From a virus, in the IMG/VR virus record IMGVR_UViG_3300020478_000024, positions 1-38,239 of that record: a DNA stretch of 38,239 nucleotides. One strand, 5' to 3'. This document shows positions 4,536 to 26,096 of the stretch, piece by piece (position 1 is the stretch's first letter; every line of letters begins with the position of its first letter). The translations under genes and the position numbers were made by a program. Below the pieces are notes generated by a model. The model was given only the letters and a program-made list of their open reading frames with translations, was not told where the DNA came from and searched no databases.

Positions 4536-5183
4536 TTACTTTTTTCCTTCTTTCTTCTCCTTGACCTTCTTACTATACTCAAGAAGTCTACTTGTTTTCT
4601 TATGTTGCTCGTTCAACTTAACACCATGTACTTTATAATTGGTTTCAGTAAGTTGACCAAGGAAAGTTAAACTTTCAGAAACTCTATTCCAGTGATACTC
4701 TTCACACTTTTCTTTAGATGCTTTGCAATCTTCTGTTAGATGATCTCCACCACACTTCTTACAAACTCCTTTAGCTTCAACAGCAGGTTCTACTTCTTCT
4801 TTAGCAACCTTGGTTACGTCCCTAATAGTAGCACCATGTGACTGCTTAACACCAGCACCAACACGGAGATCTACAGCAGGATCAGGTGCTCCAGCACCTT
4901 TCTTTACATCGTTAGGAGCAGTCTCATCTTTAACACCCAACTCTGGAATGATAGGAATCTCTTTAGACTCATCATTCTCTGGTCCAGGAACAGTACCAAT
5001 TGCAGTAGTAAATGTACTGAATGATCCACCACCCTGCTTTTGCTCTGCAGGAATGCCATCTTCAGTTAAGGGATCGGACTGTTGAAATCCGCTTCCACCC
5101 ATCCACTGACCATAGGATTCAATCAGTGCTTTCGAGTAATCGTCATCGTGTTGAACACTGTTGACTGGTTTTTGCCTTTCCAT
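4536..5183 (-). CDS. Putative virion-associated protein with zinc-knuckle-like motif
   Basis: 215 residues, unrecognised by name. Residues 1 to about 135 look disordered, rich in Gly, Pro, Asp and Glu. A cysteine-histidine cluster follows, CKKCGGDHLTEDC (C-x2-C-x3-H-x4-C), close to a zinc knuckle but with one residue fewer than the retroviral spacing. The tail (about 160-215) is a Lys-rich helix. It could bind nucleic acid or act as a scaffold. A TATAAATA late promoter lies 31 bases upstream of the ATG, inside the previous gene. The ATG overlaps that gene by 41 bases. Confidence 0.7.
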   Translation of the reverse strand: MERQKPVNSVQHDDDYSKALIESYGQWMGGSGFQQSDPLTEDGIPAEQKQGGGSFSTFTTAIGTVPGPENDESKEIPIIPELGVKDETAPNDVKKGAGAPDPAVDLRVGAGVKQSHGATIRDVTKVAKEEVEPAVEAKGVCKKCGGDHLTEDCKASKEKCEEYHWNRVSESLTFLGQLTETNYKVHGVKLNEQHKKTSRLLEYSKKVKEKKEGKK

Positions 5184-5436
5184 GTGTAAAGAAGATCGTA
5201 CTTTTTCTGTCTTTATTTATATCCTCTCTTAAATTGAGCAATCTGATATCCTTAATCCATGCCCTAAACATGTCTCCATACTCCGAAATACAGATGACAT
5301 AATTACCACCTATACGATGGATCTTACCCTTGTCACCAGTATGAGCTGACATAATTTGATCACCAACTTTAAAGACTTCTTCATGTCTAACCTGTTGACG
5401 CAGTGCTTCTTCACGTATCTTTTTAAAGTTCTTCAT
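5143..5436 (-). CDS. Small protein with KOW-like beta segment
   Basis: 97 residues. Residues 20-70 (VFKVGDQIMSAHTGDKGKIHRIGGNYV) resemble a KOW or SH3-like barrel as found in ribosomal proteins and NusG; the motif GDKGKIHRIGG is the key. The C-terminus is basic and variable. The ATG has a good Shine-Dalgarno (AAGGA, 8-10 bases upstream). It follows the ligase/HIGH fusion gene by 1 base and overlaps the next gene by 41 bases. RNA or protein binding is inferred from the barrel only. Confidence 0.65.
   Translation of the reverse strand: MKNFKKIREEALRQQVRHEEVFKVGDQIMSAHTGDKGKIHRIGGNYVICISEYGDMFRAWIKDIRLLNLREDINKDRKSTIFFTHGKAKTSQQCSTR
5214..5221 (-). promoter_or_regulatory. Late promoter TATAAATA for the zinc-knuckle protein
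   Basis: A perfect T4-type late octamer on the minus strand, 31 bases before the ATG at 5183. It lies within the 3' part of the 97-residue gene, so the downstream gene can be expressed late independently of upstream transcription. Confidence 0.65.
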
Positions 5437-12047: not shown

Positions 12048-14570
12048 TTAATTTAAAAATTGTAACAACGACACCTTCCTCTCGGAATCCCAACCTATAC
12101 ATTGTAGCACATTATGTAGTGGTTCGTAAAAAGACTTCTCAAATTGTCGTGAATAGTCAATATACTTTTCCAGATTAAATTCTGTAGGGATACGACCCAT
12201 AAAGGACACCACATTCTGCATGAATGGATTAGGCATCCGAAGATATATAAATTTAATCTTTTCTCCCTCTTGTATGGACGCATATTTATGTGTCACATCA
12301 TGCTTTCTAACATAAAAATTATAAAGCAAGGCACCACGTACATGAATAGGAGTACCCTTAACAAATATATCAGAATTACTCCTATATTTGTCTAAACCAT
12401 TAACACCACGTGGAAATGCAATGTCAGCATAGTCCTGCCTTCTGGTTTCCTCCTTTACTTTATCAATATACTGTAGGATATCATCATTATTACCTGTAAT
12501 AATAATCTTAAATGCATCTACAAGTCTATCTCTAAAGTATTGTGGGGTAGATGATCGTTGAGTCTCTAGTCCCATGATTTTCATCTTGGGTTTCTCGTAT
12601 CTTACACCCTCACTATCCCATACGTCAAGGATATATCTCTTTTTGGCAGTCCAAATACCTTTAGAAGCAATGTTCTCTCGTTTCATGACCATCTTCTGGT
12701 CATAAGCATTCAGGTAACTCGCCAATTCTTGGTAAGAACTCTCAATATACTTCTCAAATTCCAGATTACAGATCTTATCAAGGAACGAAACAACGCTTTC
12801 ATCAGTTTTCTCTCTCCCCTCGTATACAGATTTAACCAAAGGACCCAAATTAAGGTACATGGAATCAGTATCTGAAGCAATAACATAATCTTCTCCATCA
12901 GTTTTGAGTATCTTATTCAGATACGCATTCATCTTATCACCAATCCACCTGATAGATAACTGTCCTGATGTGGTAATTGCTTCTGCAATCTCCAAACGAT
13001 AGTATCTAAAATGCTCATTACCAATGGCACCATAAGCACTGTTCAACTGGATCTTTCTTGCCATCTGGATGTTATTACACCTGGCAATTTCCTTCTTTAA
13101 TTCGACACTAGGATTCTTCTCATAAGCTTGCTTTGCTTTGAGCATCTTCTTCTTATAGATGGTACGTTCTTCGTAAATTTTCTCCATAAGTTTAGGAAGA
13201 AAACCCTGAAATGTTGTGTCATATAACGTACCATTAGCACATACAGTACATCCCTTTAGATCACCTAGCGGTTCCTGTTTGTAAAGTAACCGTTCAATTG
13301 ATGCACTGGGGCGTTTTCTCGGCAGCAGGGTCTCTGGCGAGAGATTGTACTGCATGATGAGATGAGGATACAGACTATTAAGGTCGAAACTAACGACCCA
13401 ATCGTAAATACCTGGGATCGGTTCTTTGACATAAGCTCCTACATACTGACTGTTTTTCTCCGCTTGCTTTTTTGGTGGAATTACTACGTTTTGCCTTGCA
13501 AGATAAACATATATGATGTTATCCCACATTCTAACCTGTGAATATACATCCTCAAAATTAACCTTGGCATCATATGCCATAGTAATGGCAAGTTCCAAGA
13601 GTTTCATCTTATCATCTAGTAGATCAACTAGACGAACGTCATGGATGTTATACTCTACAAACTTTTCCCAATCATTATCATAAAATTCTTTAAAAGTATC
13701 ATGCTCCGAATGATCAAGTTTCTTTTGTCCTAGTTCAACAAATGCAATATGGTCTAAACGATAGGACTCTTGATTGGTATATGTAAACTTCTTATATAAC
13801 TCTAGATAATCTAGGACGGCAATACCAGTAATATCATAAGCAATATTCTTTCTACCTTTGATATATATCTCCCTAAAGTAAATATTCTTCCAGGGTGAAA
13901 TTAATCTTGATTCTTTCTCTCCTACAATCCTATTAATCCTACGAATAATATAGGGCATATCAAATAACTGCACATTCCATCCAGTAATTACATCTGGATA
14001 GTTTGTGGACCACCAATGAATGAATGCCTTAAGCATCCCTTCCTCGGTATTAAAATGCATGTACCTAACATCACCATCAATACCATCCCTGGCATTGTGA
14101 TCATAAGCACGTGTACCAAAAACAGATATCAATCCAGAATATGAATCTTTGATACTAATAAGTAAAATCTCTTGGTCAGCACTCTCGATATCAGGGAACC
14201 CATTCTCTGCCCCTGTCTCAATATCAAGTGTAAAGACACGTATCAAATTAAAATCATATTCCATATCCTCATCAGGATACTCTTCAAAGATATACTGATT
14301 AAGATATCTAGTCTGACCACAGATATCAAAATCAGGTATACCCCTATGATCTTCTATAAAAGTCTTGGCATCCCTAATAGATCCCTGTTTTACAGCACGA
14401 ACACTCTTTCCATCTAAAGTCTTCCATGCAACACCAGAAGGTTTTCCTTTAGTTGCTGGAAGATATAGTGTTGGATTGAAATTTACCTTGTCATTAAAAG
14501 CATTACCATTTTCATAACCACGAACGAGAACTGCATTACCTGCTTGCTCTACACTGGTATAAAACTTCAT
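12048..14570 (-). CDS. 43: DNA polymerase, T4 gp43-like family B
   Basis: 840-residue replicative polymerase with 3'-5' proofreading. Exonuclease residues are Asp116/Glu118 (TLDIETG), then WNVQLFDMP around 199-206 and YNIHD at 307-311. Polymerase motif A is SFDLNSLYP (Asp396), motif [10 protein letters not shown] at 506-514, motif C DTDS at 567-570. The C-terminal peptide ending VSLLQFLN is a likely sliding-clamp binding tail. Slightly shorter than T4 gp43 (898), with no intein or split seen. Its ATG overlaps the preceding Sm-like gene stop as TAATG. In T4, RegA and gp43 itself regulate translation of this message; no RNA hairpin operator is clear here. Confidence 0.97.
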
Positions 14571-14806
14571 TAGTCATTATATAATTTAAGGATTTCATCA
14601 TCAGGTTCTGCTATTACAAAAATATCAGTTGACCTGACTGCAATCTCCTCATCTTTTGAATAAGGAGGATAATTGATCAATTCACGATCATCAGTTATCT
14701 CACATGGAGATTTTAACACACAGTCTGGGTCACCAAGTTCAACCCCTGGGATCTCTTCAATTTCTGAAATGATCCACTTACCATCAAGTCGTAGTATCTT
14801 TATCAT
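14570..14806 (-). CDS. Sm-like protein A
   Basis: 78 residues. It shares a pattern with three other proteins in this window: a first strand (LRLDGKWIISEIEEI), a Cys/Val strand before Pro (CVLKSPCEI), an aromatic-proline-aromatic PPYS, then IFVIAEPDDEILKLY. This alternating beta pattern fits the Sm/Lsm fold; a structure of a Sm-like protein of probable cyanophage origin has been described. Sm proteins form rings and bind RNA, so RNA chaperoning or regulation is possible. It lies directly before gp43 (TAATG) and overlaps the previous Sm-like gene by 23 bases. Function is inferred from fold only. Confidence 0.7.
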   Translation of the reverse strand: MIKILRLDGKWIISEIEEIPGVELGDPDCVLKSPCEITDDRELINYPPYSKDEEIAVRSTDIFVIAEPDDEILKLYND

Positions 14807-15377
14807 CTCGTGTCATATCAAGCATTTCTCTATCAGGATCTACACTGCCATCAGGCATGACTGAATCCTCTGGATACTGGATACCAGGAATAGAATTATC
14901 ATGTTGATTAGGATCATTAAATTCTTCTGGAGGAACATAATTAGGATCATCCATAGGAACTCCACCTGGAGCAATCCCTTGCTCTCCTGGTTTAAACCCT
15001 GTTCCAGCAGGTACAACACCTGTTTCAGCAGCAGCAGGAACTGCTTGCTGTTGAGTTGCTGATTGTTCTGCAGCAACTGCCTGTTCAACAGTCTGTGCAT
15101 ATGCCTGTGACAATCCAGGATCAGCAGTACCAACTGCCATCACTGATGCAAAAGGAATCTTGAATTGAGTGTCCGAAGAATAAGGAAGCCACTTACTAAA
15201 ACGTACCTGAACTTCCTGGTTGACAACTGCTTGATCAGTTGATTCAACATTTAAATTATATGGACGTACAAACATCAGACATACTGGTTTGCCATCCTCT
15301 TTATTATCTTCACGGACCTCTTGAAGGTCCGTGATCACACGTTCTCCTGACTGGAGAACAACAATTGCTATAGCCAT
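14784..15377 (-). CDS. Sm-like protein B with Pro/Gln-rich tail
   Basis: 197 residues. Residues 1 to about 95 match the Sm-like pattern: VVLQSGERVITDLQEV, VCLMFVRPYNL, WLPYSSD, then VMAVGTADPGLSQAY. Residues about 100-197 form a long low-complexity tail rich in Gln, Ala, Pro, Gly and then Asp, probably disordered. Such a tail on an Sm-like core could recruit partners or RNA, as with the C-terminal tail of Hfq. A promoter region with both host-type and late-type elements lies upstream (15401-15429). Its end overlaps Sm-like protein A by 23 bases. Confidence 0.75.
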   Translation of the reverse strand: MAIAIVVLQSGERVITDLQEVREDNKEDGKPVCLMFVRPYNLNVESTDQAVVNQEVQVRFSKWLPYSSDTQFKIPFASVMAVGTADPGLSQAYAQTVEQAVAAEQSATQQQAVPAAAETGVVPAGTGFKPGEQGIAPGGVPMDDPNYVPPEEFNDPNQHDNSIPGIQYPEDSVMPDGSVDPDREMLDMTRDDKDTTT

Positions 15378-15400
15378 CTATTCGCCTTCGGTTTGAGTGT

Positions 15401-15429
15401 ATTGTATCATGTCCTATTTATTCTGTCAA
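15401..15429 (-). promoter_or_regulatory. Host sigma70-type promoter for the Sm-like/polymerase operon
   Basis: TTGACA at 15429-15424 on the minus strand, 17 bases, then TACAAT at 15406-15401 (5/6). It would start transcription about 15394, leaving a short leader before the ATG at 15377. It probably drives both Sm-like genes, gp43, uvsX and gp41. A late octamer (15415-15422) is embedded in its spacer. Confidence 0.75.
15415..15422 (-). promoter_or_regulatory. Late-type AATAAATA within the host-type promoter
   Basis: AATAAATA on the minus strand lies between the -35 and -10 boxes of the host-type promoter at 15401-15429 and 38 bases before the Sm-like ATG. It would allow the same gene set to stay on when gp55-directed transcription takes over. 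It also overlaps the stop region of hsp20. Confidence 0.5.
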
Positions 15430-15873
15430 CAGGACTTTTTCCTTTTTCCCAGGAAGTGCCTCGTTGATCGAGTAAGTGATCTTACGTTGGTGCTCTGGAA
15501 TAATTTTTTCCAGTCTAACACTCAATAGACCATCTTGGAATGAAACGTCAGAAACCTTAACATCATCACCTAACTGCCATGTGTTAGTGAATGCACGTTT
15601 TGATAGTCCTTGATGAAGATATGTTACCTGTTCCCTTGCACCTGTCTTTGTTTTAGATGCGACCTTAAGTACGTTTGTCTCTGTTTCTACTACTATCTCA
15701 TCCTTACTGAAACCTGCGAGAGCAATTTCGATTTCAAAAGTTGTGTTATCGTGCTTGATGAGATTGTATGGTGGGTAGCTCACATTGTGTGAACTCATTG
15801 ACTCTAGACGATGAAAAATATCATCCAAGCCAACATTGAAAGGGGAATAAACATCCCATGCGAGATTAGTCAT
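15418..15873 (-). CDS. hsp20: Small heat shock protein Hsp20
   Basis: 151-residue alpha-crystallin-type chaperone of the IbpA family, which holds unfolding proteins in a refoldable state without ATP. The alpha-crystallin domain spans about residues 38-135: FEIEIALAGFSKDEIVVETE, YLHQGLSKRAF, then the SVRLEKIIPEHQRK region. Hsp20 is a core gene in marine T4-like cyanophages and may protect capsid or host proteins during infection. A good AGGAG lies upstream of the ATG. A late octamer and a complex inverted repeat (15892-15948) lie in the leader. Confidence 0.95.
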   Translation of the reverse strand: MTNLAWDVYSPFNVGLDDIFHRLESMSSHNVSYPPYNLIKHDNTTFEIEIALAGFSKDEIVVETETNVLKVASKTKTGAREQVTYLHQGLSKRAFTNTWQLGDDVKVSDVSFQDGLLSVRLEKIIPEHQRKITYSINEALPGKKEKVLLTE

Positions 15874-15891
15874 TATTCTAGCTCCTATTAA

Positions 15892-15948
15892 GCGAGTTTG
15901 TTTGTGTGGACCCGTTAGGCATCCACCATTATTTATTAAACAAACTGC
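15892..15948 (-). promoter_or_regulatory. Inverted repeat in the hsp20 leader enclosing a late promoter
   Basis: AGTTTGTTT (15895-15903) and AAACAAACT (15938-15946) are perfect 9-bp arms, extendable by GC/GC with one bulge. Inside is a second dyad, GTGGA (15906-15910) and TCCAC (15922-15926). The late octamer (15930-15937) lies between the arms. A run of seven T follows on the plus strand (15949-15955), so on that strand it looks like an intrinsic terminator. On the minus strand, early read-through RNA would form the stem while late-initiated RNA would lack one arm. Confidence 0.6.
15930..15937 (-). promoter_or_regulatory. Late promoter AATAAATA for hsp20
   Basis: AATAAATA on the minus strand, 56 bases before the hsp20 ATG. 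It lies inside the long inverted repeat of the leader. The RNA would begin around 15924. Confidence 0.6.
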
Positions 15949-15964
15949 TTTTTTTAAGGTGCGG

Positions 15965-16366
15965 TTACTCCCACCGTGTACATACTAGTTCAACTGCCTG
16001 GTCTACTGGATTAACATACTGTTCAGCAATCTGAAATCCTTCCTGCTTAACTGCAGAAACAACACTAGTCAATGCATACTGTTGTGTAAGTTTCTTAATG
16101 AACATCTCAACAGGAACATTAAGATCCCATGTCTGCTCATCTACAACCATCTCAAAACACTCTTCTTCCTGGTTCCACTTAAATCCAACCTTACCATTAA
16201 CACTAGTAAAATCCACAGGAACATCAGGATGACCCTTTGCATGTTGAGCATCAGCAACAACCATAACCTGTTGTTCCTGTACGGTATCATACTGGAGTGA
16301 TTTTAATGCCTCAACTATGTGCTCTTGATCATGTAATTTGGTCTTAATGCAACTAAAGTGGGACAT
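15965..16366 (-). CDS. DUF1257 (Ycf35) family protein
   Basis: 133 residues: MSHFSCIKTKLHDQEHIVEAL opening and the closing VELVCTRWE are typical of Ycf35, a conserved cyanobacterial and plastid protein of unknown function. There is no membrane helix. In cyanobacteria ycf35 is often next to a DUF2997 gene; here the same pair is present in the same order, overlapping by 14 bases, which suggests a block acquired from a host. A role in iron, ferredoxin or photosystem maintenance has been suggested from context but is unproven. Confidence 0.85.
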   Translation of the reverse strand: MSHFSCIKTKLHDQEHIVEALKSLQYDTVQEQQVMVVADAQHAKGHPDVPVDFTSVNGKVGFKWNQEEECFEMVVDEQTWDLNVPVEMFIKKLTQQYALTSVVSAVKQEGFQIAEQYVNPVDQAVELVCTRWE

Positions 16367-16562
16367 TGTTCTCTTGATTTAGTACTACTTGTTCTTGTGA
16401 TGAGTACCTATCAGCAGTAGGTTCTCTATACTGCAACTGCCCAAGTGCCTTCTCAATATTCTCCGTCAGAAGTTCACATGAAGGACCAGTACATCCCTCT
16501 ACGATCTCTTCTACAATACCATCTTGACGAATACGAAACTTGATAGTCTGTTGATGTGCCAT
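16353..16562 (-). CDS. DUF2997 family protein
   Basis: 69 residues from the ATG at 16562, chosen because the family begins near MAHQQTIKFRIRQDGIVEE; an upstream GTG at 16574 would add four residues. The motif EEIVEGCTGPSC is the family hallmark, with two Cys that may bind a metal or form a disulphide. It precedes and overlaps the Ycf35-type gene, as in cyanobacteria. Neither start has a strong Shine-Dalgarno. Confidence 0.8.
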   Translation of the reverse strand: MAHQQTIKFRIRQDGIVEEIVEGCTGPSCELLTENIEKALGQLQYREPTADRYSSQEQVVLNQENNVPL

Positions 16563-16595
16563 TTGATACACCACAAGGTCTATCTATTTAGTTAA

Positions 16596-16799
16596 TTACA
16601 AGTAAGCTTTGCTGATATTAGTGAGAAATCCTACCACAGTAACACCAGCAGCCAGTACTGCTGCGGCACCAATGACCCATTTCTCAACTACTTTTAATCT
16701 CTCACGAAGCTCTTCTTGCTTCTCTTCTAATCGCTCTATTTTTAAAGCCATTACTGTCAGTCTGGTCTCCTGACTAGCATCTAATGATAATTCAGTCAT
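16596..16799 (-). CDS. Small coiled-coil protein with C-terminal membrane segment
   Basis: 67 residues. Residues 1-43 are a Glu/Lys/Arg/Leu-rich coiled coil (KIERLEEKQEELRERLKVVEK) and residues about 45-62 a hydrophobic helix (WVIGAAAVLAAGVTVVGFL). It matches the layout of XhlA-like small membrane proteins and of the larger gene at 1807-2184. It begins 2 bases after the RegA stop, so it is probably expressed with the early block. Function unknown. Confidence 0.75.
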   Translation of the reverse strand: MTELSLDASQETRLTVMALKIERLEEKQEELRERLKVVEKWVIGAAAVLAAGVTVVGFLTNISKAYL

Positions 16800-16801
16800 A
16801 G

Positions 16802-17224
16802 TTATACAGTAGTTTTTTTACGTCCAATATTGTACTTGCTCTCAAGTGTCCATTCGTCTTTGTCTTTAAACGACAACACTTTGATCTGATTCAATGGTGC
16901 AATGTCTTCAATAGATTTAGCTTCCACCACTGACACTAGGCCCCAATCAGACAATAGTTGTGCTATTCTATTACGACGCTGAACATCATTGACAGTAAGA
17001 TTAGTCTTCTTACCATCTAATGCAAACAATTCTTTAAAATGAACGATATAATATCTACCTTGCTTATGTAAGATATGACATGATTGATATAACTTACGCT
17101 CTTTACGTGAAGCAACACCTATACGTGTTAATGTCTCACGTACCTTGAGAAAATCGTCTGGTTCCGAGAGACTGACCTCTACCATATCCGATGGCTGCCA
17201 ATCAATTTCAATTTCAGTAGTCAT
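16802..17224 (-). CDS. regA: Translational repressor RegA
   Basis: 140-residue RNA-binding protein that represses early phage mRNAs by covering their start regions, including replication genes in T4. The central region VASRKERKLYQSCHILHKQGRYYIVHFKELF and the helix VNDVQRRNRIAQLLSDWGL are characteristic. It is longer than T4 RegA (122), mostly at the C-terminus. A clear Shine-Dalgarno (AAAGGCGGG) precedes the ATG. Its place between gp62 and the route to gp43 is the same as in T4. Confidence 0.95.
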   Translation of the reverse strand: MTTEIEIDWQPSDMVEVSLSEPDDFLKVRETLTRIGVASRKERKLYQSCHILHKQGRYYIVHFKELFALDGKKTNLTVNDVQRRNRIAQLLSDWGLVSVVEAKSIEDIAPLNQIKVLSFKDKDEWTLESKYNIGRKKTTV

Positions 17225-17226
17225 CT

Positions 17227-17625
17227 TTACCCGCCTTTATCTAATAGTAATTTTATTTTATCAAGTTGGGATTTTGTGAGAATCCTCAAGGCGGCGATAG
17301 CTTTATTATGACTATATCCATAATATTCTTTCACCAATTCAAGGTGCACAAGAGAGTCCCTCTTGACCCAAGGAGATGATCGCTTCCTTGGCTTCAAACT
17401 ATTTAGGTAAAAATCGTATTGCATCTTCTTGTCAAGATCATAATACCTATTCATTTCATTAGCATATAAAATGCTATCTAAATGTCCTGATAATATCTTG
17501 TTAATCATCCATGGAGGATATTCTTTAATCCGATCCCGATCATCATCATAAAGACTCTGTTTGGATTGATTTATACTATACAATATATCCTTAAGTTCAG
17601 CACTCTTACGTTCTTTTCGATTCAT
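17227..17625 (-). CDS. 62: Clamp loader small subunit, T4 gp62-like
   Basis: 132 residues; forms the clamp loader with gp44 and helps place the gp45 ring on DNA. The order 45-44-(inserts)-62-regA-43 matches T4. Shorter than T4 gp62 (187), with the conserved core EYPPWMINKILSGHLDS and the Lys/Arg stretch around LKPRKRSSPW. The gene overlaps the upstream 48-residue gene as ATGA and ends 2 bases before regA. The short length is usual for cyanophage versions, as far as I recall. Confidence 0.85.
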   Translation of the reverse strand: MNRKERKSAELKDILYSINQSKQSLYDDDRDRIKEYPPWMINKILSGHLDSILYANEMNRYYDLDKKMQYDFYLNSLKPRKRSSPWVKRDSLVHLELVKEYYGYSHNKAIAALRILTKSQLDKIKLLLDKGG

Positions 17626-17768
17626 GTATCAAATTTGGCATTCACACCAATCACTTTAGCATGTGGATTCCTAACGAGAGCGACCTCTCTCGCTTCCTGG
17701 TAGTTACGTGCTTCAACAAACTCACTATAGACCTTGCCAGCTACGTAAAGTTTTACTTCACACTTCAT
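17622..17768 (-). CDS. 48-residue conserved-looking microprotein
   Basis: Begins MKCEVKLYVAGKVYSEFV, then EARNYQEAREVALVRN and ends AKVIGVNAKFDT. This alternating beta-alpha-beta pattern suggests a small folded domain. The start overlaps the Dam stop by 11 bases, and its stop overlaps the gp62 ATG as ATGA, so it bridges the two genes translationally. No function is known to me. The overlap at both ends and the regular codon use support a real gene. Confidence 0.75.
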   Translation of the reverse strand: MKCEVKLYVAGKVYSEFVEARNYQEAREVALVRNPHAKVIGVNAKFDT

Positions 17769-18642
17769 AATTAAAGATGACGAGTTCGTCCCTGGTTGCT
17801 TGTTCCTTATTATACTCCCCTGTGGACCTCATGGTGTAAGTGTGTGCAAAATTATCAACTGTCCACTTGGTTGGATCCCTGAACCTATCCTTGACCAACT
17901 GCTCATCATTGTATGAGATCAATAGTTTTGCTTGACAGGTGTTACATCTGTTAGCAAACTCATCATGATCAAAATCCCTGTGATATGACCCTCTCTTACC
18001 ATAAAGATTGTCCTCAATATCATATGGAGGATCAAGATAAATGAATACATCTGGATCATTAATCAGATGTTCTGCATAATTATGATTTGAAAATCTCCAA
18101 TTCTTTATAATCTTTGCATACTCTGGCAATCTTTCCATACCTTTAACTGACCAATTAGATACAGATGCCTGTTTAGAGAATGATGATGCTTCAGTGAGAC
18201 CAGAAAAAGAACACTTGTTTACAATATAAAAAGCGACAGCCTTATGAAAACAACTAGGCATCTGCTGTGAATCAAGATCATCCTTTAGTTTATCAAATAA
18301 TTTTTTCGCTGGATACTCAAAATTCTTATCTTTCTTCTGTGCTGGAGTAGGATCTGGATACTGATTCTTATAAAACAGCAACTGATTATGCAATCCTTCT
18401 GGATTTGTTTGAAGAATCTGCCAGAAATTAATCAAAGCAGGATACAAATCATTAACCCAAATCTTAAGATGTGGATAACGTTTAGCAACTTCTAGTGCTA
18501 CTGAACCCCCACCAAGAAATAACTCACGATACTCTTTTGCCTGGGAAAGGTCTGGGAGGAATTGCAACAGTTTGCTTACTGCTCTGCTCTTCCCTCCTGG
18601 GTAACGTAGAGGGGTCTTCAGTGATTTGATAGTTCGAGCCAT
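17758..18642 (-). CDS. dam: DNA adenine N6-methyltransferase, Dam-like
   Basis: 294-residue D12-class methyltransferase that transfers a methyl group from AdoMet to adenine N6, probably in GATC-type sites. The AdoMet-binding segments are LRYPGGKSRA (12-21) and LFLGGGS (41-47); the catalytic DPPY is at 204-207. Expected role: protection from host restriction or marking phage DNA. It starts inside the upstream 86-residue gene with a 119-base overlap; no strong Shine-Dalgarno is visible, so its expression may rely on translation of that gene. Specificity is inferred, not read from the sequence. Confidence 0.9.
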   Translation of the reverse strand: MARTIKSLKTPLRYPGGKSRAVSKLLQFLPDLSQAKEYRELFLGGGSVALEVAKRYPHLKIWVNDLYPALINFWQILQTNPEGLHNQLLFYKNQYPDPTPAQKKDKNFEYPAKKLFDKLKDDLDSQQMPSCFHKAVAFYIVNKCSFSGLTEASSFSKQASVSNWSVKGMERLPEYAKIIKNWRFSNHNYAEHLINDPDVFIYLDPPYDIEDNLYGKRGSYHRDFDHDEFANRCNTCQAKLLISYNDEQLVKDRFRDPTKWTVDNFAHTYTMRSTGEYNKEQATRDELVIFNYEV

Positions 18643-18784
18643 GGTATTTTAAATATTCTCTAAAAGTGTACTTCATTTGTTTCATAGTCATACCACAATG
18701 AGCAGCTGCTGCTGGGATATTCATTGTAGCATGATATAATGCTTCATTTGCTTCCTGAACTAATTCAGGAGTTGGTTTTGTCAT
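18524..18784 (-). CDS. Small helix-turn-helix-like protein
   Basis: 86 residues. Residues 5-45 (ELVQEANEALYHATMNIPAAAAHCGMTMKQMKYTFREYL) look like a helix-turn-helix, with AAAAHCGM-TMKQMKYTF as turn and recognition helices. The C-terminal 40 residues are basic and Pro-rich and overlap the first codons of dam in another frame. The start overlaps the upstream Sm-like gene stop as TAATG. DNA binding, possibly autoregulation of this small cluster, is inferred from the helix pattern only. Confidence 0.65.
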   Translation of the reverse strand: MTKPTPELVQEANEALYHATMNIPAAAAHCGMTMKQMKYTFREYLKYHGSNYQITEDPSTLPRREEQSSKQTVAIPPRPFPGKRVS

Positions 18785-19074
18785 TAGTAAATGATACCTT
18801 TCTTTGGTGTAATTACTGTAGAAAATAATGCTTCATATTGTTCTGTAATACCAGCATTAGGTTGAGCAATGTAAAGAACATGACTCATCTGTATTGATAA
18901 CTCTTGTTTCTCCTCAAGTAATGGTGACCATGGAGCAAATCCAATCTTCCCTTCACCTGCAGGTACAGCAACAATAGGATCAGTAACAGTTATATAATCT
19001 TCTTCAATGGAAACGACATTACAAATAACGTCTTCACCACTTGAAACTCTAACCAATCTTGTATCTCTTTCCAT
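18784..19074 (-). CDS. Sm-like protein C
   Basis: 96 residues: RVSSGEDVICNVVSIEEDYI, VTDPIVAV, APWSPLLEEKQELSIQMSHVLYIAQPNAGITEQY. This matches the pattern of the other three Sm-like proteins in this window. The Shine-Dalgarno AGAGGA lies before the ATG. It follows gp44 by 9 bases and overlaps the HTH-like gene by TAATG. RNA binding or clamp-loader-linked regulation is only a suggestion. Confidence 0.75.
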   Translation of the reverse strand: MERDTRLVRVSSGEDVICNVVSIEEDYITVTDPIVAVPAGEGKIGFAPWSPLLEEKQELSIQMSHVLYIAQPNAGITEQYEALFSTVITPKKGIIY

Positions 19075-19083
19075 TTAATCCTC

Positions 19084-20031
19084 TTATTTAAATTCACAAC
19101 TCATCATGATCTCGGTGAGACATGCAAGCATATTTATCTCTTGATCAGCAACCTGATCTATCAATGCCTGATATTTAGCTAGTATTAATACTGCTTCAGG
19201 AATAGATGTCTTCTTTAAAGTTTCGTATAAAGAATTGTAAATCTTCCTTATGACAAGATAAGGATCATTGGTCATATTATCTACAACCCACTTCTTTACA
19301 ACAGTAAACTCCTTTGCCTTCAATGATTTCATAAGATCATCCAACTCAATGTCAGAAATATCAACCAAAATAGCAGAATCAATATGCCCATTAACAGCAT
19401 GTCTCTGTGCTTCATTGATTAATCTACGCCAGTCAGGATAATACCTACTAATAAGTTTTAAAACAATAGCAGGATCATATCTAATATCATTTTCAGCAAG
19501 AATGAACTGCAGTCTTTTAAAGAATGCTGCTTGCATCAATGGTTTATCACCTGTCCTAATCCTAAAATCAACCACTGTACATCTAGAATGTAGAGGTTCA
19601 ATAATTCTATTAGGAAAATTACATGTGAAAATAAACCTACAGTTCTCATAGAACTCTTCGATAAAAGTTCTCAAAGACAACTGTACATCACTAGAAGTGT
19701 TGTCTGCTTCATCAATAATAACCACCTTGGTGGATTTATTATTAGTTAATGATACAGTAGATGCAAATTTACGTATCCGTATCCTTACAGTATCAAGAAA
19801 TCTACCCTCATCAGATCCATTAACAACAATATATGAAGCACCAACCTCCTCACATAGTGCTTTTGCAACAGTAGTCTTTCCTACTCCAGCAGCACCACAT
19901 AACATTAAATTTGGTACTTCACCTTGCTCAACAAAACCATTAAAGGTTTCATGGATGGAAGATGGAAGAATGCATTCTTGAACAGTTTTAGGACGGTACT
20001 CCTCAACCCACAAGAATTTTCTATTTGCCAT
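19084..20031 (-). CDS. 44: Clamp loader ATPase, T4 gp44-like
   Basis: 315-residue AAA+ ATPase that opens and loads the gp45 clamp with gp62. Walker A is GAAGVGKT at 46-53, Walker B IIDEAD at 105-110, and the SRC motif that contacts the neighbouring subunit is at 149-151. It matches T4 gp44 (319). It begins directly after the gp45 stop (the ATG follows without a spacer). Confidence 0.95.
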   Translation of the reverse strand: MANRKFLWVEEYRPKTVQECILPSSIHETFNGFVEQGEVPNLMLCGAAGVGKTTVAKALCEEVGASYIVVNGSDEGRFLDTVRIRIRKFASTVSLTNNKSTKVVIIDEADNTSSDVQLSLRTFIEEFYENCRFIFTCNFPNRIIEPLHSRCTVVDFRIRTGDKPLMQAAFFKRLQFILAENDIRYDPAIVLKLISRYYPDWRRLINEAQRHAVNGHIDSAILVDISDIELDDLMKSLKAKEFTVVKKWVVDNMTNDPYLVIRKIYNSLYETLKKTSIPEAVLILAKYQALIDQVADQEINMLACLTEIMMSCEFK

Positions 20032-20709
20032 CTATTGGGGCTCCAAAGCAACATAGTATTTAAGTGGAAGACGTTTATGTGTCCATTCTGTAATCAACTT
20101 ATCAGAAATACGAACATCATAATCACCTTGGTGTAACCTAACATTCTCCATTTTCATGGAACACTTGAATGGTTTGGTAGATTCCCCCTTTACCTTAACA
20201 CTGTAAAGATTACAAGTGTCATCTTCTTTGTCACACAGATTAATATTAACTTCATCTGCTTGACCATCTTTAACTTCAAACTCTAGGTCTGGTAAACTAA
20301 AAACTCTAGCAGCATCTTGAAGTTTTTTCAATTCCTCTACAGAAACAGTGAATGACATGTCAGCACCTGGGAAGTTAACTTCCTTTTCTGGTGCTGCTTT
20401 AATAGTAATCTCTGGATTTGAGAAATAATATTTGACACTAGAATTTGGACCAAGGATAGTCATATAAGACTCATTGGAAAATTCAATTACAGGATTATCA
20501 AACAATGACAACCCACTTAAAAGAACTCCAAGATCATAGATTCCAAATGTCTGTGGAAATACTTCTTCACATTGGTATTGTGCAATAGCATTTTCACCAA
20601 CACTAATAGTTTTTAATACACTACCAGAACGAATCAAAATAGAATCATTAATAGTATTAAAGTTTTTTAGTATTTCCTGTGTTTGTTTTGATAGTATAAC
20701 TGTGCTCAT
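20032..20709 (-). CDS. 45: Sliding clamp, T4 gp45-like
   Basis: 225 residues; a trimeric processivity ring for gp43 that also activates late transcription through gp55. The PCNA-like fold is recognised from order and length (T4 228) and segments such as LSKQTQEILKNF and SIRSGSV/LKTISV-like strands; the DUF3310 gene overlaps its start by ATGA. The gene order 46-(small)-45-44-62-regA is T4-like. I recognise it mainly by context and by the N- and C-terminal strands. Confidence 0.9.
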   Translation of the reverse strand: MSTVILSKQTQEILKNFNTINDSILIRSGSVLKTISVGENAIAQYQCEEVFPQTFGIYDLGVLLSGLSLFDNPVIEFSNESYMTILGPNSSVKYYFSNPEITIKAAPEKEVNFPGADMSFTVSVEELKKLQDAARVFSLPDLEFEVKDGQADEVNINLCDKEDDTCNLYSVKVKGESTKPFKCSMKMENVRLHQGDYDVRISDKLITEWTHKRLPLKYYVALEPQ

Positions 20710-21047
20710 TTGTCATAATCAACGGTGAATGATGTATCTCCAGTTTGAAGAGACTGCGCTCTAGCAGTCTTATCATTGAAGTGTAGGAGCAGCATACCAT
20801 AATGGATAATCTTTATGATATCCTTACGTGCTGTTCCCTTTCGATCATACCTAGATGCATACTTAAGGACATTACTCCTACAGAATGCTTCAGCGTCACC
20901 AACAGAATCGATCAAGTCCAGTGTCTGAACTCCACCTGTACTGTAGTGACCACGATAGGTATTGCTGATGTAGTCTGAAATCTCTTGCAAGATTTCTGTC
21001 TCATTATATTTGTTAGTCAATATGCCATACGTATTCAATATCATCAT
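20706..21047 (-). CDS. DUF3310 domain protein
   Basis: 113 residues from the ATG at 21047; a TTG at 21074 would add nine residues, and a second ATG follows at 21044. The pattern VQTLDLIDSVGDAEAFCRSNVLKYASRYDRKG is the DUF3310 hallmark, found in many phages and fused to nucleotide kinase in T7 gp1.7. It may act in nucleotide metabolism or as a partner of a replication protein. The end overlaps gp45 as ATGA. A TTGACG-N17-TATCAT promoter-like pair lies at the upstream edge. Confidence 0.8.
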   Translation of the reverse strand: MMILNTYGILTNKYNETEILQEISDYISNTYRGHYSTGGVQTLDLIDSVGDAEAFCRSNVLKYASRYDRKGTARKDIIKIIHYGMLLLHFNDKTARAQSLQTGDTSFTVDYDK

Positions 21048-21246
21048 GATAGCATTCAAAGACGTTTCCGTCAAGGTCCACCATTACAATTCGGTGCCTG
21101 GGACTGGCAGGGTTGCCACGATCTCCAATAATCTTAACAGATCTACCATCCTTCAACCTAACAACGTGACCCATATATTCATGTTCTGTAACTGCTGTTC
21201 CAGATAAGGTCATTTTAGTATGAAGGGTCTCCTGGTATGTCGTCAT
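21013..21246 (-). CDS. Small beta-rich protein of unknown function (77 residues)
   Basis: Begins MTTYQETLHTKMTLSG; the core HVVRLKDGRSVKIIGDRGNP then RIVMVDLDGNVFECYHDD looks like a small beta barrel, similar in pattern to SH3-like domains. It overlaps the 79-residue gene by 32 bases and the DUF3310 gene by about 35 bases. No catalytic motif is seen. Confidence 0.7.
   Translation of the reverse strand: MTTYQETLHTKMTLSGTAVTEHEYMGHVVRLKDGRSVKIIGDRGNPASPRHRIVMVDLDGNVFECYHDDIEYVWHID
21047..21075 (-). promoter_or_regulatory. Possible host-type promoter upstream of gp45
   Basis: TTGACG (5/6) at about 21075-21070, 17 bases, then TATCAT (5/6) ending near 21047 on the minus strand. It would serve gp45, gp44 and later genes; the transcript would start inside the DUF3310 gene. 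It lies inside coding sequence, so it may be coincidental. Confidence 0.35.
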
Positions 21247-21454
21247 CTGCTACTTCTGTTGTTTTTTCTTGTGTTAAATCATCATCTTCTGTGTCGTCAT
21301 CAAGTTTTGTAAACTCCAACTGATCAAAGAAGAATCCTGTTCCTTTAAGGAACTCTTCCATCTTTTCAACTACATGTGGTAAAAAGATACCTTCAAACTC
21401 CATAGTAGTTTTACAGTTATCCTCATCTACACATGTAAATGTCCACTGTGCCAT
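21215..21454 (-). CDS. Small acidic protein of unknown function (79 residues)
   Basis: MAQWTFTCVDEDNCKTTMEFE opening with two Cys, a central VVEKMEEFLKGTGFFFDQ helix and a very acidic tail (DDDTEDDDLTQ). It is probably a soluble regulator or an adaptor. It begins 55 bases after the gp46 stop. A weak promoter-like TTGCGA-N17-TAGTAT pair lies in that gap. Function unknown. Confidence 0.65.
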   Translation of the reverse strand: MAQWTFTCVDEDNCKTTMEFEGIFLPHVVEKMEEFLKGTGFFFDQLEFTKLDDDTEDDDLTQEKTTEVADDDIPGDPSY

Positions 21455-21509
21455 AATAATTTATCGAACGTGTGTATACTACCATAGTTCATATGAGTTC
21501 GCAACAGTT
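21455..21509 (-). promoter_or_regulatory. Intergenic gap with weak promoter-like pair
   Basis: Between the gp46 stop and the 79-residue gene. On the minus strand TTGCGA, 17 bases, then TAGTAT, each a 4/6 match. It could start transcription of the gp45-44-62 block, but the match is weak. Confidence 0.3.
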
Positions 21510-23198
21510 CTAGTCCACTTGTAGAACTGACTCCCTCATAACACTATAATTCTTAACCTTATCAACATACAGGGTCCTATCGAACTTACCTTCAAGAGTT
21601 TCCTTGTGACTTATGACAAATATATTTGTGTTTTCATCAAAGTTACGTAGGATCCATCCCAGTTCACTAGTACCACCCTGATCTAAAGACCCATCAAAGA
21701 TTTCATCGAGGATGAGTATATTAGTATCGACGCTATTTTTAAGTTTAGCGATAGAACGCCAAGTAAGCAACAAAGCGATATCAATCCTAGCCTTTTCTCC
21801 CTCGCTGAAAGATTCATAAGAGAAGGAGTCTCTATATCTGGACTTGATAGTTTCTTCAAAGTTCTCGTCGAGGTTGAAATTGACATAAAATTCTAAATTT
21901 TGTAAGTGTTGATTAATAAGTTTATTCATCACAGGAAGATAACGCTTAATAATTCTTGTCTTAATACCGTTATCTTTCAGTAATAATGTAGCAGCAAGAA
22001 GAGTATTCCTCTCTTCCTTCATAGCAGAGATTAGTTTCTTTGTTCCCTGATACTCACTCTCAAGATTAGATAGTTTATTCTCTGCCTCTACAGTATCATT
22101 CTTTTCATTTTGTAACTTCTCTATGTCACGTAAAAACTCCTGCACTTGTCTCTGAAGACTAGTGATAGAAGAATTCTTTTTTGATATTGATAGATCAAGA
22201 TTACGATAAACAAAATCACTTCGTTCTGCTTCTTCAATAGCAACATCCATTTCTTCAAATCCAACTTGAAGTATCTTAATGTCTTCCATTATAGAAGCAA
22301 GTTTACTATCCTTCAACTCTTCATTGATTGATTGTCCACACGTAGGACATTCAGTATTATCACTAAAGAACTTATGTTGTTTCTGATGTGAAGAAAACTT
22401 CTGATGTATCTTACCCTTCAAGGTATTTAATTTCTTTAACTTCTCACTAGCACCTTCTTCCTTATCTCTTCTTTCAATGAGTTCTAAAACTCCCTTCTCC
22501 ATTGTTTCAATCTCTTCCATGAGAGATTTAACTTTAGTATGTTTCTCTGCTATAGTATCTTCATTCTTTTGTTCAATAGTATTAATGAATTCCTTCTGCA
22601 TAGAAATCTTTTCTTCAAGAAGGTTTACATTATACTCAACATCTTTAAACTCATCATTACATGTTCTAACTTTATCCTTCAACAATGTATTCATAACAGA
22701 GAAGATATTAATATCAAGTATATCTTCAATGATTTCTCTACGTTGCGTTGCTGGCAAACGCATGAATGGAACAAATGTACTAGATCCTAACACCACGATT
22801 TGGGTGAAAGACTTGTAATTCATCTTAAGAATATTCTGTTCTAGATTCTTTTGTGAATCATTAACATTACTAGATTGATCTAGCATCACATCGTTCTGCC
22901 AAATCTCTAATACATTTGGTTTGATTCCTCTTATAATTTTAAACCTATTTGGTCCCTTACTGAACTCAATCTCTACAACACAATCTTTCTCATTGATGCT
23001 ATTAACAAGCATCGGTTTATTGATCTTCCTAAACGGTTTACCAAACAACGAAAAGGTCAACGCATCTAAAATGGTTGACTTGCCAGCACCATTAGTACCG
23101 ACAATGAGATTTGTCTTGGCACCTTGGAGATCTATTTCAGTAAATACATTCCCCGTCGAAAGAAAATTCCTCCATCGGAGCTTCTCAAATCTAATCAT
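21510..23198 (-). CDS. 46: Recombination nuclease ATPase subunit, T4 gp46-like (Rad50/SbcC)
   Basis: 562-residue SMC-like ATPase; with gp47 it resects double-strand ends for recombination-dependent replication and degrades host DNA. Walker A is GTNGAGKS at 34-41; a zinc hook CPTC at 284-287 sits in the middle of long coiled coils; the ABC signature FSEGEKARID and Walker B TNILILDEIFDG are near the end. Length matches T4 gp46 (560). The ATG overlaps the DUF3110 gene stop as ATGA. Confidence 0.96.
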   Translation of the reverse strand: MIRFEKLRWRNFLSTGNVFTEIDLQGAKTNLIVGTNGAGKSTILDALTFSLFGKPFRKINKPMLVNSINEKDCVVEIEFSKGPNRFKIIRGIKPNVLEIWQNDVMLDQSSNVNDSQKNLEQNILKMNYKSFTQIVVLGSSTFVPFMRLPATQRREIIEDILDINIFSVMNTLLKDKVRTCNDEFKDVEYNVNLLEEKISMQKEFINTIEQKNEDTIAEKHTKVKSLMEEIETMEKGVLELIERRDKEEGASEKLKKLNTLKGKIHQKFSSHQKQHKFFSDNTECPTCGQSINEELKDSKLASIMEDIKILQVGFEEMDVAIEEAERSDFVYRNLDLSISKKNSSITSLQRQVQEFLRDIEKLQNEKNDTVEAENKLSNLESEYQGTKKLISAMKEERNTLLAATLLLKDNGIKTRIIKRYLPVMNKLINQHLQNLEFYVNFNLDENFEETIKSRYRDSFSYESFSEGEKARIDIALLLTWRSIAKLKNSVDTNILILDEIFDGSLDQGGTSELGWILRNFDENTNIFVISHKETLEGKFDRTLYVDKVKNYSVMRESVLQVD

Positions 23199-23464
23199 TC
23201 AATGTCAAAGGGAGGGATCATCATATCGTCAACGGTTATTATAACACACTTTTGGTTTCTTTCATTACATGCTGTAACGATTTGTTCCATAGGAACCTCA
23301 ACGATCTGAAGAGGTGGATTATTTGCTTCTGCTTCTAGTTGTATATGATATCTTAACATGTCATCCTCATTCTCAAAAATGGGAATTACATGCTCACCAG
23401 AATTTTGATCGATCACAGAAAACACTCCTTCTGGACGACCGATTAAAGTGAGAATGTAGGACAT
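23195..23464 (-). CDS. DUF3110 family protein between gp47 and gp46
   Basis: 89 residues: YILTLIGRPEGVFSVIDQNSGEHVIPIFENEDDMLRYHIQLEAE, then PPLQIVEVPMEQIVTACNERNQKC. This is the DUF3110 pattern, known from cyanobacteria and plants. It is linked to both nuclease genes by TAATG (from gp47) and ATGA (to gp46), so it is translated with the complex. It may be a small accessory subunit or a host-derived passenger; function is unknown. Confidence 0.8.
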   Translation of the reverse strand: MSYILTLIGRPEGVFSVIDQNSGEHVIPIFENEDDMLRYHIQLEAEANNPPLQIVEVPMEQIVTACNERNQKCVIITVDDMMIPPFDIE

Positions 23465-24507
23465 TAGACCATTTCACAACTTTCAATATATAGGGTTCTC
23501 ATCACCTGTTTTAATTGTTTCTTGTCTACGGTCATCTCTACCTCATCAATATATTCATTAAGTAATGTCAAGGTATCCTTCACCTCTACAGATGCATCTC
23601 CTTCAGAGACATCATCATCTATCAAAGTCTCTACAACTTTAATATCATGTGCTCCTGCAATGTAAAGACGATCCAGCATCTCATCAAATTTCTCATAGTC
23701 TCTCTTCTCTTCAACTACAATTTTAATATAAGTATCCTTATACTGATCATAATCTATACTCATGTCTCCATTGACATCATTATAGAATATTTTCTTAAAA
23801 ATTTTATATGGATTCTTGATCCAGGTCAACTTCAAAGACTCTGTATCGAATAAATGGAACCCACGAGGATCGTTATAATCGTTCCAGAACATCTCATAAG
23901 GGTTTCCAAGGTACGTTACATTACCTTTACGTGACTTATGATGGTAATGACCAGAGAAGACCTTCCTGAAGCGTTTAAGGAGGGTTGGTGACATACCATA
24001 CCCCATCATCCCAGGAACCATTTCAAATCCTTCTAGTTCGAGATGTCCCATTGCAATTTCTGCATCAGAATTCTCCATCAACTCAATACTCTCTTTACGA
24101 TTCTGTGAGTTAATCCAAGGGAGTAATGCTATCTTACGTCCATCAACTGTAATGTGACATGGTTTAGAATAAACTTTTATATTTGGAAACTCATTCAACA
24201 ATAGAGACGGAGAATTAACATCGTTAGTGTTTTTATAATAGGCACAATGATTGCCAATAACCATATGGACAGTAATGCCCATATCTTCCAAGCGTTGAAA
24301 ATAATTAGTGCGGATCCGATTCCAAACATTATAGTCAATCCCCTTTCTCTGATCAAAAGTATCACCAAGATCTATTACAGTCTTGATCTTCTTCTTATTT
24401 AATGTGGGAAAGAAAACATCATCATAAAACTTCAGGAAAAAATTCCAGAAGTTAATATTACCCTTCCTACCATCCAAGTGTTGATCTGTAATAATTGCTA
24501 CTGTCAT
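23464..24507 (-). CDS. 47: Recombination nuclease subunit, T4 gp47-like (Mre11/SbcD)
   Basis: 347-residue metallophosphoesterase nuclease. Metal-binding motifs: Asp8 and His10 (TDQH), Asp49 (IDLGDTFDQR), GNH at 85-87, His155 (GHLE) and GHYHH at 186-190, all as in Mre11. It works with gp46. Length matches T4 gp47 (339). Its stop codon overlaps the DUF3110 start. Confidence 0.96.
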   Translation of the reverse strand: MTVAIITDQHLDGRKGNINFWNFFLKFYDDVFFPTLNKKKIKTVIDLGDTFDQRKGIDYNVWNRIRTNYFQRLEDMGITVHMVIGNHCAYYKNTNDVNSPSLLLNEFPNIKVYSKPCHITVDGRKIALLPWINSQNRKESIELMENSDAEIAMGHLELEGFEMVPGMMGYGMSPTLLKRFRKVFSGHYHHKSRKGNVTYLGNPYEMFWNDYNDPRGFHLFDTESLKLTWIKNPYKIFKKIFYNDVNGDMSIDYDQYKDTYIKIVVEEKRDYEKFDEMLDRLYIAGAHDIKVVETLIDDDVSEGDASVEVKDTLTLLNEYIDEVEMTVDKKQLKQVMRTLYIESCEMV

Positions 24508-24689
24508 TTTGGTAGAACACCACCTTCAGACAGATCTTTAATAGGAAATGTAATCATCTTCTCCCATGGTGATAAATTATCAAATAATACTGCTGCCTTA
24601 TCTCCACTGATACGTTGAACAAATCCAACATACCCTCTGTAGATAGAAGTTTCATCAATCACTGTCACTGTCGTTCCTGGTAAGATCAT
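24504..24689 (-). CDS. Small KOW/SH3-like protein
   Basis: 61 residues from the ATG at 24689. I chose this start because AAGGA lies before it; an upstream in-frame start at 24761 would add 24 residues that overlap the neighbouring gene. The sequence ILPGTTVTVIDETSIYRGYVGFVQRISGDKAAVLFDNLSPW looks like a KOW or SH3 barrel. Its end overlaps gp47 as ATGA. It could bind RNA or the recombination nuclease; this is a guess. Confidence 0.6.
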   Translation of the reverse strand: MILPGTTVTVIDETSIYRGYVGFVQRISGDKAAVLFDNLSPWEKMITFPIKDLSEGGVLPK

Positions 24690-25077
24690 TATCCTTTCTT
24701 CTAGGTACTTGTATTGTCCATGCTCCACCTTCAAGATCAACCATCTCAAACTCGGAAGCATTCTTCTTTCTTTGTTTCTCTTCTTTCTCTCTTTCTACCA
24801 ACTCTTTCTCACGTCCAGGTTCAGGTTGAATCTCACCATAGTGTTTATCTGTCCAGATTTCTGGATGCTCATGACAATCAAAGAACTCTAGGATACTAGA
24901 GTCAACCATATGATAAAGAGTATCCCATGTTAATGTACTACGCAGTTTCTCTGCTATGTAATCAATCTGATTCTCTGACATAGAGACATCATCATCTTTA
25001 AACAGATACTCACCTCTTACTGCTACCAACTCATTCAAGTTAATGAGTATAGAGTTGTCATTATAAATGGCTCTCAT
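24655..25077 (-). CDS. Protein of unknown function next to gp55
   Basis: 140 residues. Residues 1-60 (MRAIYNDNSILINLNELVAVRG) look like a beta-alpha domain; residues 85-140 are charged, with a Glu/Lys-rich helix (EREKEEKQRKK) and an Asp/Ser-rich tail. The start overlaps the gp55 stop as ATGA and the end overlaps the KOW-like gene by 35 bases. No family is recognised. Confidence 0.65.
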   Translation of the reverse strand: MRAIYNDNSILINLNELVAVRGEYLFKDDDVSMSENQIDYIAEKLRSTLTWDTLYHMVDSSILEFFDCHEHPEIWTDKHYGEIQPEPGREKELVEREKEEKQRKKNASEFEMVDLEGGAWTIQVPRRKDNDLTRNDSDSD

Positions 25078-25568
25078 CGATTGTTCATCCTCGTTTCTAT
25101 ATTTTCTTTTATGCTACCCATGTCTGAATAAGACTGATTCATACCTGCCATATCACCTTCATAAGTTTCAGTGTACATGACCTCTTGATACCCAGACTTC
25201 TCTAGGATCTTACTCTTAATTTCTAACTGACGCTTCTCTTTCTGTATTCTTCTTAAGAAAGCGTAATATATGATCTGGGTGAAATAAGCAAAAGGATTAG
25301 ATGATTTCTCTGGATTAAAGTTATCAATATATTGCAAGCAGTTCTCAATGCCATCACAAATCATATCTTCCCTGAACATATAGTTCACGAAGTTTGGCTT
25401 GTATGATAGATGTGTAGCAATCTTTAAAAAGCAGTCACCAATATAGTTTGGAACACGTGGTTTATCCTTACCACCAAGAGAAGCACGAGCAACCTTTCCT
25501 TTATAAGCAACTATAGCCTCTAGAAACTCTCGGTTATTTACATAGTACTCGGTCTTTGCTTTTGCCAT
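25074..25568 (-). CDS. 55: Late-transcription sigma factor, T4 gp55-like
   Basis: 164 residues; binds host RNA polymerase and directs it to late promoters (TATAAATA-type) together with the gp45 clamp. The region NPFAYFTQIIYYAFLRRIQK (about 91-110) corresponds to sigma region 2 that melts and reads the -10 element. T4 gp55 has 185 residues. A near-perfect host-type promoter (25595-25623) lies immediately upstream and makes it an early gene. Confidence 0.92.
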   Translation of the reverse strand: MAKAKTEYYVNNREFLEAIVAYKGKVARASLGGKDKPRVPNYIGDCFLKIATHLSYKPNFVNYMFREDMICDGIENCLQYIDNFNPEKSSNPFAYFTQIIYYAFLRRIQKEKRQLEIKSKILEKSGYQEVMYTETYEGDMAGMNQSYSDMGSIKENIETRMNNR

Positions 25569-25594
25569 GCATCTTAATCTTTTTTGCTAACGGT

Positions 25595-25623
25595 AGTATA
25601 GTATAAAATACTTGTTTTGTCAA
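25595..25623 (-). promoter_or_regulatory. Strong host sigma70-type promoter for gp55
   Basis: TTGACA at 25623-25618 on the minus strand, 17 bases, TATACT at 25600-25595: the same pair and spacing as the primase promoter. The predicted start leaves a leader of only about 20 bases before the ATG at 25568. Confidence 0.85.
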
Positions 25624-25629
25624 CGGGGC

Positions 25630-25658
25630 TTGACAACCCCAAACAAACCTAGTACAAT
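25630..25658 (+). promoter_or_regulatory. Divergent host sigma70-type promoter
   Basis: TTGACA at 25630-25635 on the plus strand, 17 bases, then TACAAT at 25653-25658. It points toward the Sm-like gene at 25698-26096 and uvsW, opposite to all genes here, so it would make an antisense or small RNA. A dyad (GGGG..TTGACAA..CCCC, 25625-25640) covers its -35 box. Confidence 0.6.
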
Positions 25659-25697
25659 AACTCTGTCAAGGGTTCAGGGATAAGTCTCTAGAAACTT

Positions 25698-26096
25698 TTA
25701 GCTGTTATTAAAGATCTTCTCCAACATAATTTTTGTTTGTTTAACAGATCCTAGGTATCCCATCTGTTTAGTAAGACCTTTACCATTAACATTAGTAGGT
25801 ATTTCACCATCTAATTCAAGATGCTTTTCATAGAAGTGTGCTATCTTTTTATCTAATTCTGTTATAGTAACTACTTGTTTCATTTTAACTACAAACATAG
25901 TTTCATATGTAGCAGTCATCCATTCTTTTAAATGAAATCCTTCTATAGCCCTATTACCTCTTTTCTGGATAATACGTTCTACAATCATAGGATTATCAAC
26001 CAATAAAGAATCTTCATCTGGCATGTAAGAAACTTTAGCAATAAGTTCTTCACCAGTTACTAACTTTAAAGTTGCATAGAATTCTTCTTCCATCAT
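25698..26096 (-). CDS. Sm-like protein D
   Basis: 132 residues. The core ATLKLVTGEELIAKVSYMP, LLVDNPMIVERI, then EWMTATYETMFVVKMKQVV matches the other Sm-like proteins, with a longer C-terminal helical extension (ELDKKIAHFYEKHLELDGE). The start overlaps the UvsW stop: ATGATG with TGA. This paralogue lies about 10 kb from the other three, next to gp55. RNA binding is inferred from the fold. Confidence 0.65.
   Translation of the reverse strand: MMEEEFYATLKLVTGEELIAKVSYMPDEDSLLVDNPMIVERIIQKRGNRAIEGFHLKEWMTATYETMFVVKMKQVVTITELDKKIAHFYEKHLELDGEIPTNVNGKGLTKQMGYLGSVKQTKIMLEKIFNNS

Follow-up and report, generated by a model that had tools for sequence, protein, structure and literature searches.

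PDB entry 3by7 is the Sm/LSm-like protein JCVI_PEP_1096686650277, deposited with five chains, and the designed particle TIP60 incorporates a putative Sm-like protein of five-fold symmetry (PMC12389965). Relatives of these proteins are encoded in a stretch of DNA of 38,239 bases, IMG/VR virus record IMGVR_UViG_3300020478_000024, which was analysed over its whole length and is referred to below as the window. The window is a fragment of a marine cyanophage with a T4-like gene order; related sequences come from marine cyanophages classed in the Kyanoviridae and from single-cell contigs of marine viruses. Four of its genes, all on the minus strand, are considered here: A (14570..14806), B (14784..15377), C (18784..19074) and D (25698..26096), each an open frame with exactly these ends. 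Gene A encodes a minimal Sm-like protein of 78 aa, while the 197-aa product of B joins an Sm-like core (approximately residues 1-99) to an acidic tail rich in Pro, Asp and Ala. Gene C, immediately downstream of gp44, encodes a 96-aa Sm-like protein, and D a 132-aa protein in which the Sm-like domain is followed by a C-terminal extension ending in a helix. The four proteins diverged long ago and belong to a single Sm-like family specific to phages, that of 3by7, PF20198 and PF16243. We regard this identity, together with its conservation in related phages, as very nearly certain.

The family relationship is revealed by profile comparison, for which strict sets were built from IMG/VR relatives of each protein. 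Five of the six profile-profile pairs are significant (C-D, E = 3e-8; B-D, 5e-8; B-C, 4e-7; A-C, 5e-7; A-B, 6e-5), the weakest pair being A-D, with a direct E-value of 0.037. All four profiles also find 3by7, C most strongly (9.3e-18), followed by D (2.8e-7), B (5e-6) and A (5e-4), and C matches it by phmmer as well (4.4e-8). This entry is the best solved relative for the A, B and C profiles; for D, TIP60 is marginally ahead (1.4e-7), but matches to TIP60 are not independent of 3by7 because its Sm-like part aligns to the same residues. In Pfam, A and B pass the cut-off for DUF6561 (PF20198; 1.6e-22 and 2.2e-6, respectively) and D passes that for Sm_like (PF16243; 2.7e-11). The match of C to DUF6561 is below threshold (0.018), and that of D is likewise weak. 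Each protein has one clear PHROG (A 483, B 431, C 527 and D 471), and each of these PHROGs cross-matches others of the set. The relatives of A, B, C and D were also pooled into one superfamily profile, which thus includes the four proteins themselves; it matched the window at exactly these four genes and, at E-values up to 10, revealed no fifth Sm-like gene. A reading of the sequence alone had proposed four Sm-like paralogues with a common pattern of strands and turns. The paralogy is borne out by these comparisons, and the pattern reflects real homology and not chance, although its 'SGE' element is missing from A, which reads DGKWII at this place.

AlphaFold models of the B core and of D agree with the profile results; the fold of A and C rests on their homology to 3by7. 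Predicted local distance difference test (pLDDT) values are 86 for the B core and 76 for D (approximately 76-94 in its core), and in both models the strands run in the same order, the last of them is preceded by a short helical turn, and a helix stands at the C-terminus. Both thus contain the strongly bent, five-stranded sheet of Sm type, with the helical turn in its usual place. The N-terminal helix that precedes strand 1 in Sm proteins is absent from both; each model begins with strand 1, and its helix follows the last strand. In Foldseek searches of the PDB, 3by7 ranked first for both models, with a probability of 1.00 and template modelling scores (relative to the target) of up to 0.91 for B and 0.88 for D. 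After 3by7 and the TIP60 fusions came Sm/LSm proteins from spliceosomes and from Lsm rings, so that the proposal of an Sm-like fold also stands. A search of predicted viral structures with the B model returned many cyanophage proteins, one of which, from S-CAM3, is already named 'Sm-like domain-containing', as well as proteins from Burkholderia, Ralstonia, Agrobacterium, Sinorhizobium and Stenotrophomonas phages. A placement of the four proteins in different folds is ruled out by the 3by7 profile matches, the profile pairs and the two models. The related suggestion that they are unrelated small beta-barrels, alike in composition and short motifs, could appeal to the low identity of the A, B and D families to C (17-24%) and to the A-D value given above. 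Nevertheless, a common solved relative for all four profiles, the 3by7 fold of both models and significance in five of six pairs make such a coincidence extremely improbable, and this suggestion is close to refuted.

Other phages carry the set too, and it belongs to the usual gene content of the T4-like cyanophages (Kyanoviridae). Genes A, B and D occur in all nine complete Kyanoviridae isolates surveyed with PF20198 and the superfamily profile (Syn1, S-CAM3, S-PM2, P-TIM40, P-RSM4, P-SSM2, ACG-2014f, Syn2 and S-RIM2). Four of these isolates, S-CAM3, ACG-2014f, Syn2 and S-RIM2, have C as well. By the same searches, pelagiphage HTVC008M has one family member, and T4 and KVP40 have none. In tblastn searches, C matched 351 phage records and D 419, nearly all of them from cyanophages. 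Purifying selection acts on each of the four genes, with ratios of nonsynonymous to synonymous substitution rates of 0.15-0.47 against the nearest relatives. In a maximum-likelihood tree, A (support 99/98), D (93/87) and C together with 3by7 (82/80) form separate groups that contain distant isolates, from which the A, C and D lineages are judged to be ancient. B is not one resolved group, and A is placed among its lineages; only the main groupings of this tree are safe, because few columns were available and the root was placed at the midpoint. A cellular source was also considered. A scan of genome contigs, restricted to the family-C peptide pattern, gave a sole match, in contig L208 (NHBP01000076.1) of a 'Planctomycetaceae' metagenome-assembled genome. 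This contig is phage-like, and since gp44, gp62, RegA, hsp20 and gp43 flank its C-type gene, it appears to be a phage fragment that was binned wrongly.

The order of genes around the four is strikingly constant. As the sequence-only reading had stated, they neighbour the genes for the polymerase, the clamp loader and the late sigma factor: A abuts gp43, C follows gp44, and D lies between uvsW and gp55, an order that relatives keep. In 72 of 74 loci the next gene after A is gp43, and in at least 65 of 73 the next after B is A. D stands directly after uvsW in 42 of 42 loci and before gp55 in 39 of these; in the window, it overlaps the end of uvsW by 4 nucleotides and is upstream of gp55. C has gp44 before it in 21 loci; in 65 others it comes after gp43, which is a distinct arrangement. 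The 3' end of B overlaps A by 23 bp, the commonest B-A spacing among relatives, and the TAA stop of A overlaps the gp43 start by 1 nucleotide (TAATG). Among the 72 related loci, the A-gp43 overlap is 4 nucleotides in 57 and 1 nucleotide, as in the window, in 9. Together, the two overlaps suggest that B, A and gp43 are translationally coupled. A promoter-like site just upstream of this run (15401..15429, minus strand; TTGACA-17-TACAAT with an extended TG and 11 of 12 consensus matches) came from a consensus scan only and is weak, comparable sites being about equally frequent in shuffled sequence. In two metagenomic phages, a second, diverged B-type gene stands in tandem (B-B-A-gp43; L010:7178-8255 and L011:263-1430), and is thus one more Sm-like paralogue adjoining gp43.

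The tail of B (residues 100-197, 98 aa) had been described as a disordered Gln/Pro tail similar to that of an expanded Hfq. It is indeed acidic, of low complexity and rich in Pro (13 residues), but Asp (12), Ala (10) and Gly (9) are all more frequent than Gln (7), and most relatives have a shorter tail, the family median length being 137 aa. A short element of the tail, A-A-E-T-G-V-V-P (15009..15032, minus strand), recurs as A-A-E/D-T-G-F/V/M-V-P, of the A..TG.VP kind, in 20 of 27 distinct B homologues, including those with shorter tails, while the rest of the tail is variable. This conserved element may be a docking motif.

These observations may be brought together as follows. One phage-specific Sm-like gene would have duplicated early in T4-like marine phages, and its copies would have settled beside gp43, gp44 and uvsW. 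By analogy with 3by7, each protein would form a small ring through its Sm core, and these accessory or adaptor rings would be made together with the proteins of replication, recombination and late transcription, their surfaces and tails perhaps specialised for different partners. A and B, the genes of which overlap each other and gp43, would act at the gp43 step, and contact with nucleic acid would be possible but secondary. Mixed A/B rings, also raised by the sequence-only reading, are possible because the two genes are adjacent and overlapping; the gene pair is suggestive only. An ancient Sm-like family locked beside core genes and acting as accessory or adaptor rings is the best explanation as a whole, and we give it about an even chance; the adaptor-ring mechanism taken by itself is held more tentatively, at somewhat below that level.

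Several points weigh against this explanation. T4-like replication genes are broadly syntenic, the loci counted above share ancestry and so are not independent, and gene adjacency is no proof of joint work. T4 itself replicates without these proteins. Further, the Sm2 position of A holds an Arg in 26 of 32 sequences, which could be an RNA contact. The 3by7 protein is reportedly a homopentamer of putative cyanophage origin for which a nucleic-acid-binding role was suggested.

RNA binding in the manner of Hfq is the main rival. Rings of this kind would capture transcripts of the phage or the host, in their pore or on one of their faces, and would regulate how replication and late mRNAs are translated or how stable they are; in part they would stand in for an RNA chaperone missing from the host. 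In favour of such a role are the Sm fold itself (behind 3by7, the structure search returned true Sm/LSm proteins), the Arg of A, which is followed by an invariant Ser, and the presence nearby of a gene for RegA, an mRNA-binding repressor. There is also a gap in the host that a phage-supplied chaperone would fill: hfq is missing from most sequenced Prochlorococcus strains (PMC2518516), and cyanobacterial Hfq, according to a review, does not bind RNA and works with pilus proteins (PMC10989914). The latter cuts both ways, since it means that an Sm fold alone need not imply RNA binding. Against this rival, all four proteins are acidic (isoelectric points of 4.13 for A, 4.06 for B, 4.48 for C and 5.66 for D; family medians of 4.2-4.9), in contrast to RegA, gp62, gp55 and UvsW, the nucleic-acid-acting proteins of the same window, with isoelectric points of 8.6-9.5. 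None of them matches the LSM or Hfq models of Pfam. The Sm1 and Sm2 motifs (Asp..Asn in loop 3 and Arg-Gly in loop 5) are not generally kept, the loop-3 part of this statement having been judged by eye. The Arg-Gly position of Sm2, as inferred from a sequence alignment guided by the model strands, is occupied by Arg-Ser in A (Ser in all 32 sequences), by Pro-Phe in B and by variable residues in C and D, and no RNA partner is known. Acidity argues against binding of U-rich or A-rich RNA as in Hfq, without deciding the matter, and with the RNA-binding residues of Sm1 and Sm2 generally absent, protein contacts are favoured over an RNA-lined pore. The phage RNA-regulation network that had been suggested from the sequence therefore finds no support in the Pfam searches, the charge or the Sm2 residues of B, C and D, and Hfq-like rings are considered unlikely, if still a serious contender. 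A more elaborate form, in which the phage would have its own multi-subunit Sm-like system (a mixed A/B ring plus C and D rings binding phage RNA and linking the output of polymerase, clamp loader and late transcription, in hosts with Hfq absent or not RNA-binding), is improbable. Literature searches for phage-encoded Hfq, and for DUF6561, PF16243 and PF20198, returned no papers.

A lesser rival would see the four as acidic mimics of nucleic acid that block RNA- or DNA-binding proteins of the host, by analogy with the Sm-like protein Rof of enterobacteria, which obstructs RNA binding by Rho (PMC11018626). The small size, acidity and Sm fold of the proteins would suit this role (A, for example, has 78 aa and an isoelectric point of 4.1). 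However, Rho is not known from cyanobacteria, and another target would be needed. That the genes keep strictly to their places beside, and overlap with, gp43, uvsW and gp44 also suggests a role with phage proteins over that of a loosely placed host-takeover factor. Such blocking is thus regarded as a doubtful explanation, well behind Hfq-like RNA binding.

Taken together, three to four Sm-fold paralogues, conserved and in synteny with replication and late-transcription genes, appear to be standard equipment of abundant ocean phages. Their current annotations are hypothetical protein, DUF6561 or 'methylamine utilization'. The last is attached to orthologues of D, in PHROG 471 and in GenBank (Syn1_130, PRSM4_149 and P-TIM40 AU107_gp144), and appears to be a propagated error, because both the profile and the fold of D are Sm-like. 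Recognition of one family would allow a common name and the correction of this likely misannotation. No paper describing the multi-paralogue set was found, in a search that reached few subscription journals.

Several other small genes of the window, all on the minus strand, may be mentioned. An 85-aa open reading frame between gp55 and gp47 (24504-24761) is over the Pfam cut-off for NdhS (PF11623, 1.2e-18), and its product resembles subunit S of the NDH-1 complex. Adjoining genes of DUF1257 (7.9e-18) and DUF2997 (1.2e-15), two families of unknown function, lie between hsp20 and RegA (15965-16574), and a DUF3110 protein is encoded between gp46 and gp47 (23195-23464). Two small proteins (5143-5436 and 21013-21246) have no Pfam match and by eye look like small beta barrels (KOW/SH3-like); by the superfamily profile, they are not members of the Sm-like family.

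Compared with known systems, the four proteins stand in the same fold class as Sm/LSm proteins and Hfq, with eukaryotic Sm/LSm chains close behind 3by7 and the TIP60 fusions in the structure search. They differ from these in their acidity, in lacking the Sm1 and Sm2 motifs and in having a helix at the C-terminal instead of the N-terminal end. Rof (YaeO) is likewise a small Sm-fold protein, and acts by protein contact (PMC11018626). No sequence match between Rof and the window proteins was found. Its target, Rho, is not known from cyanobacteria. T4 UvsW.1 has the same gene position as D, directly after uvsW, but it was described as trihelical (PMC7824862), whereas both model and profile make D a beta barrel; an identification of D with UvsW.1 is ruled out on this ground. 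The closest counterpart is 3by7, which belongs to the same family by profile and fold and groups with C in the tree. It is a single orphan metagenomic protein with five experimentally determined chains, whereas the window encodes four paralogues, known from sequence and models, of which B carries a long acidic tail and D a C-terminal extension. Finally, the Pfam and PHROG libraries keep PF20198, PF16243 and PHROGs 483, 431, 527 and 471 as separate families without function, apart from the 'methylamine utilization' label of PHROG 471, while the evidence presented here unites them in one superfamily.

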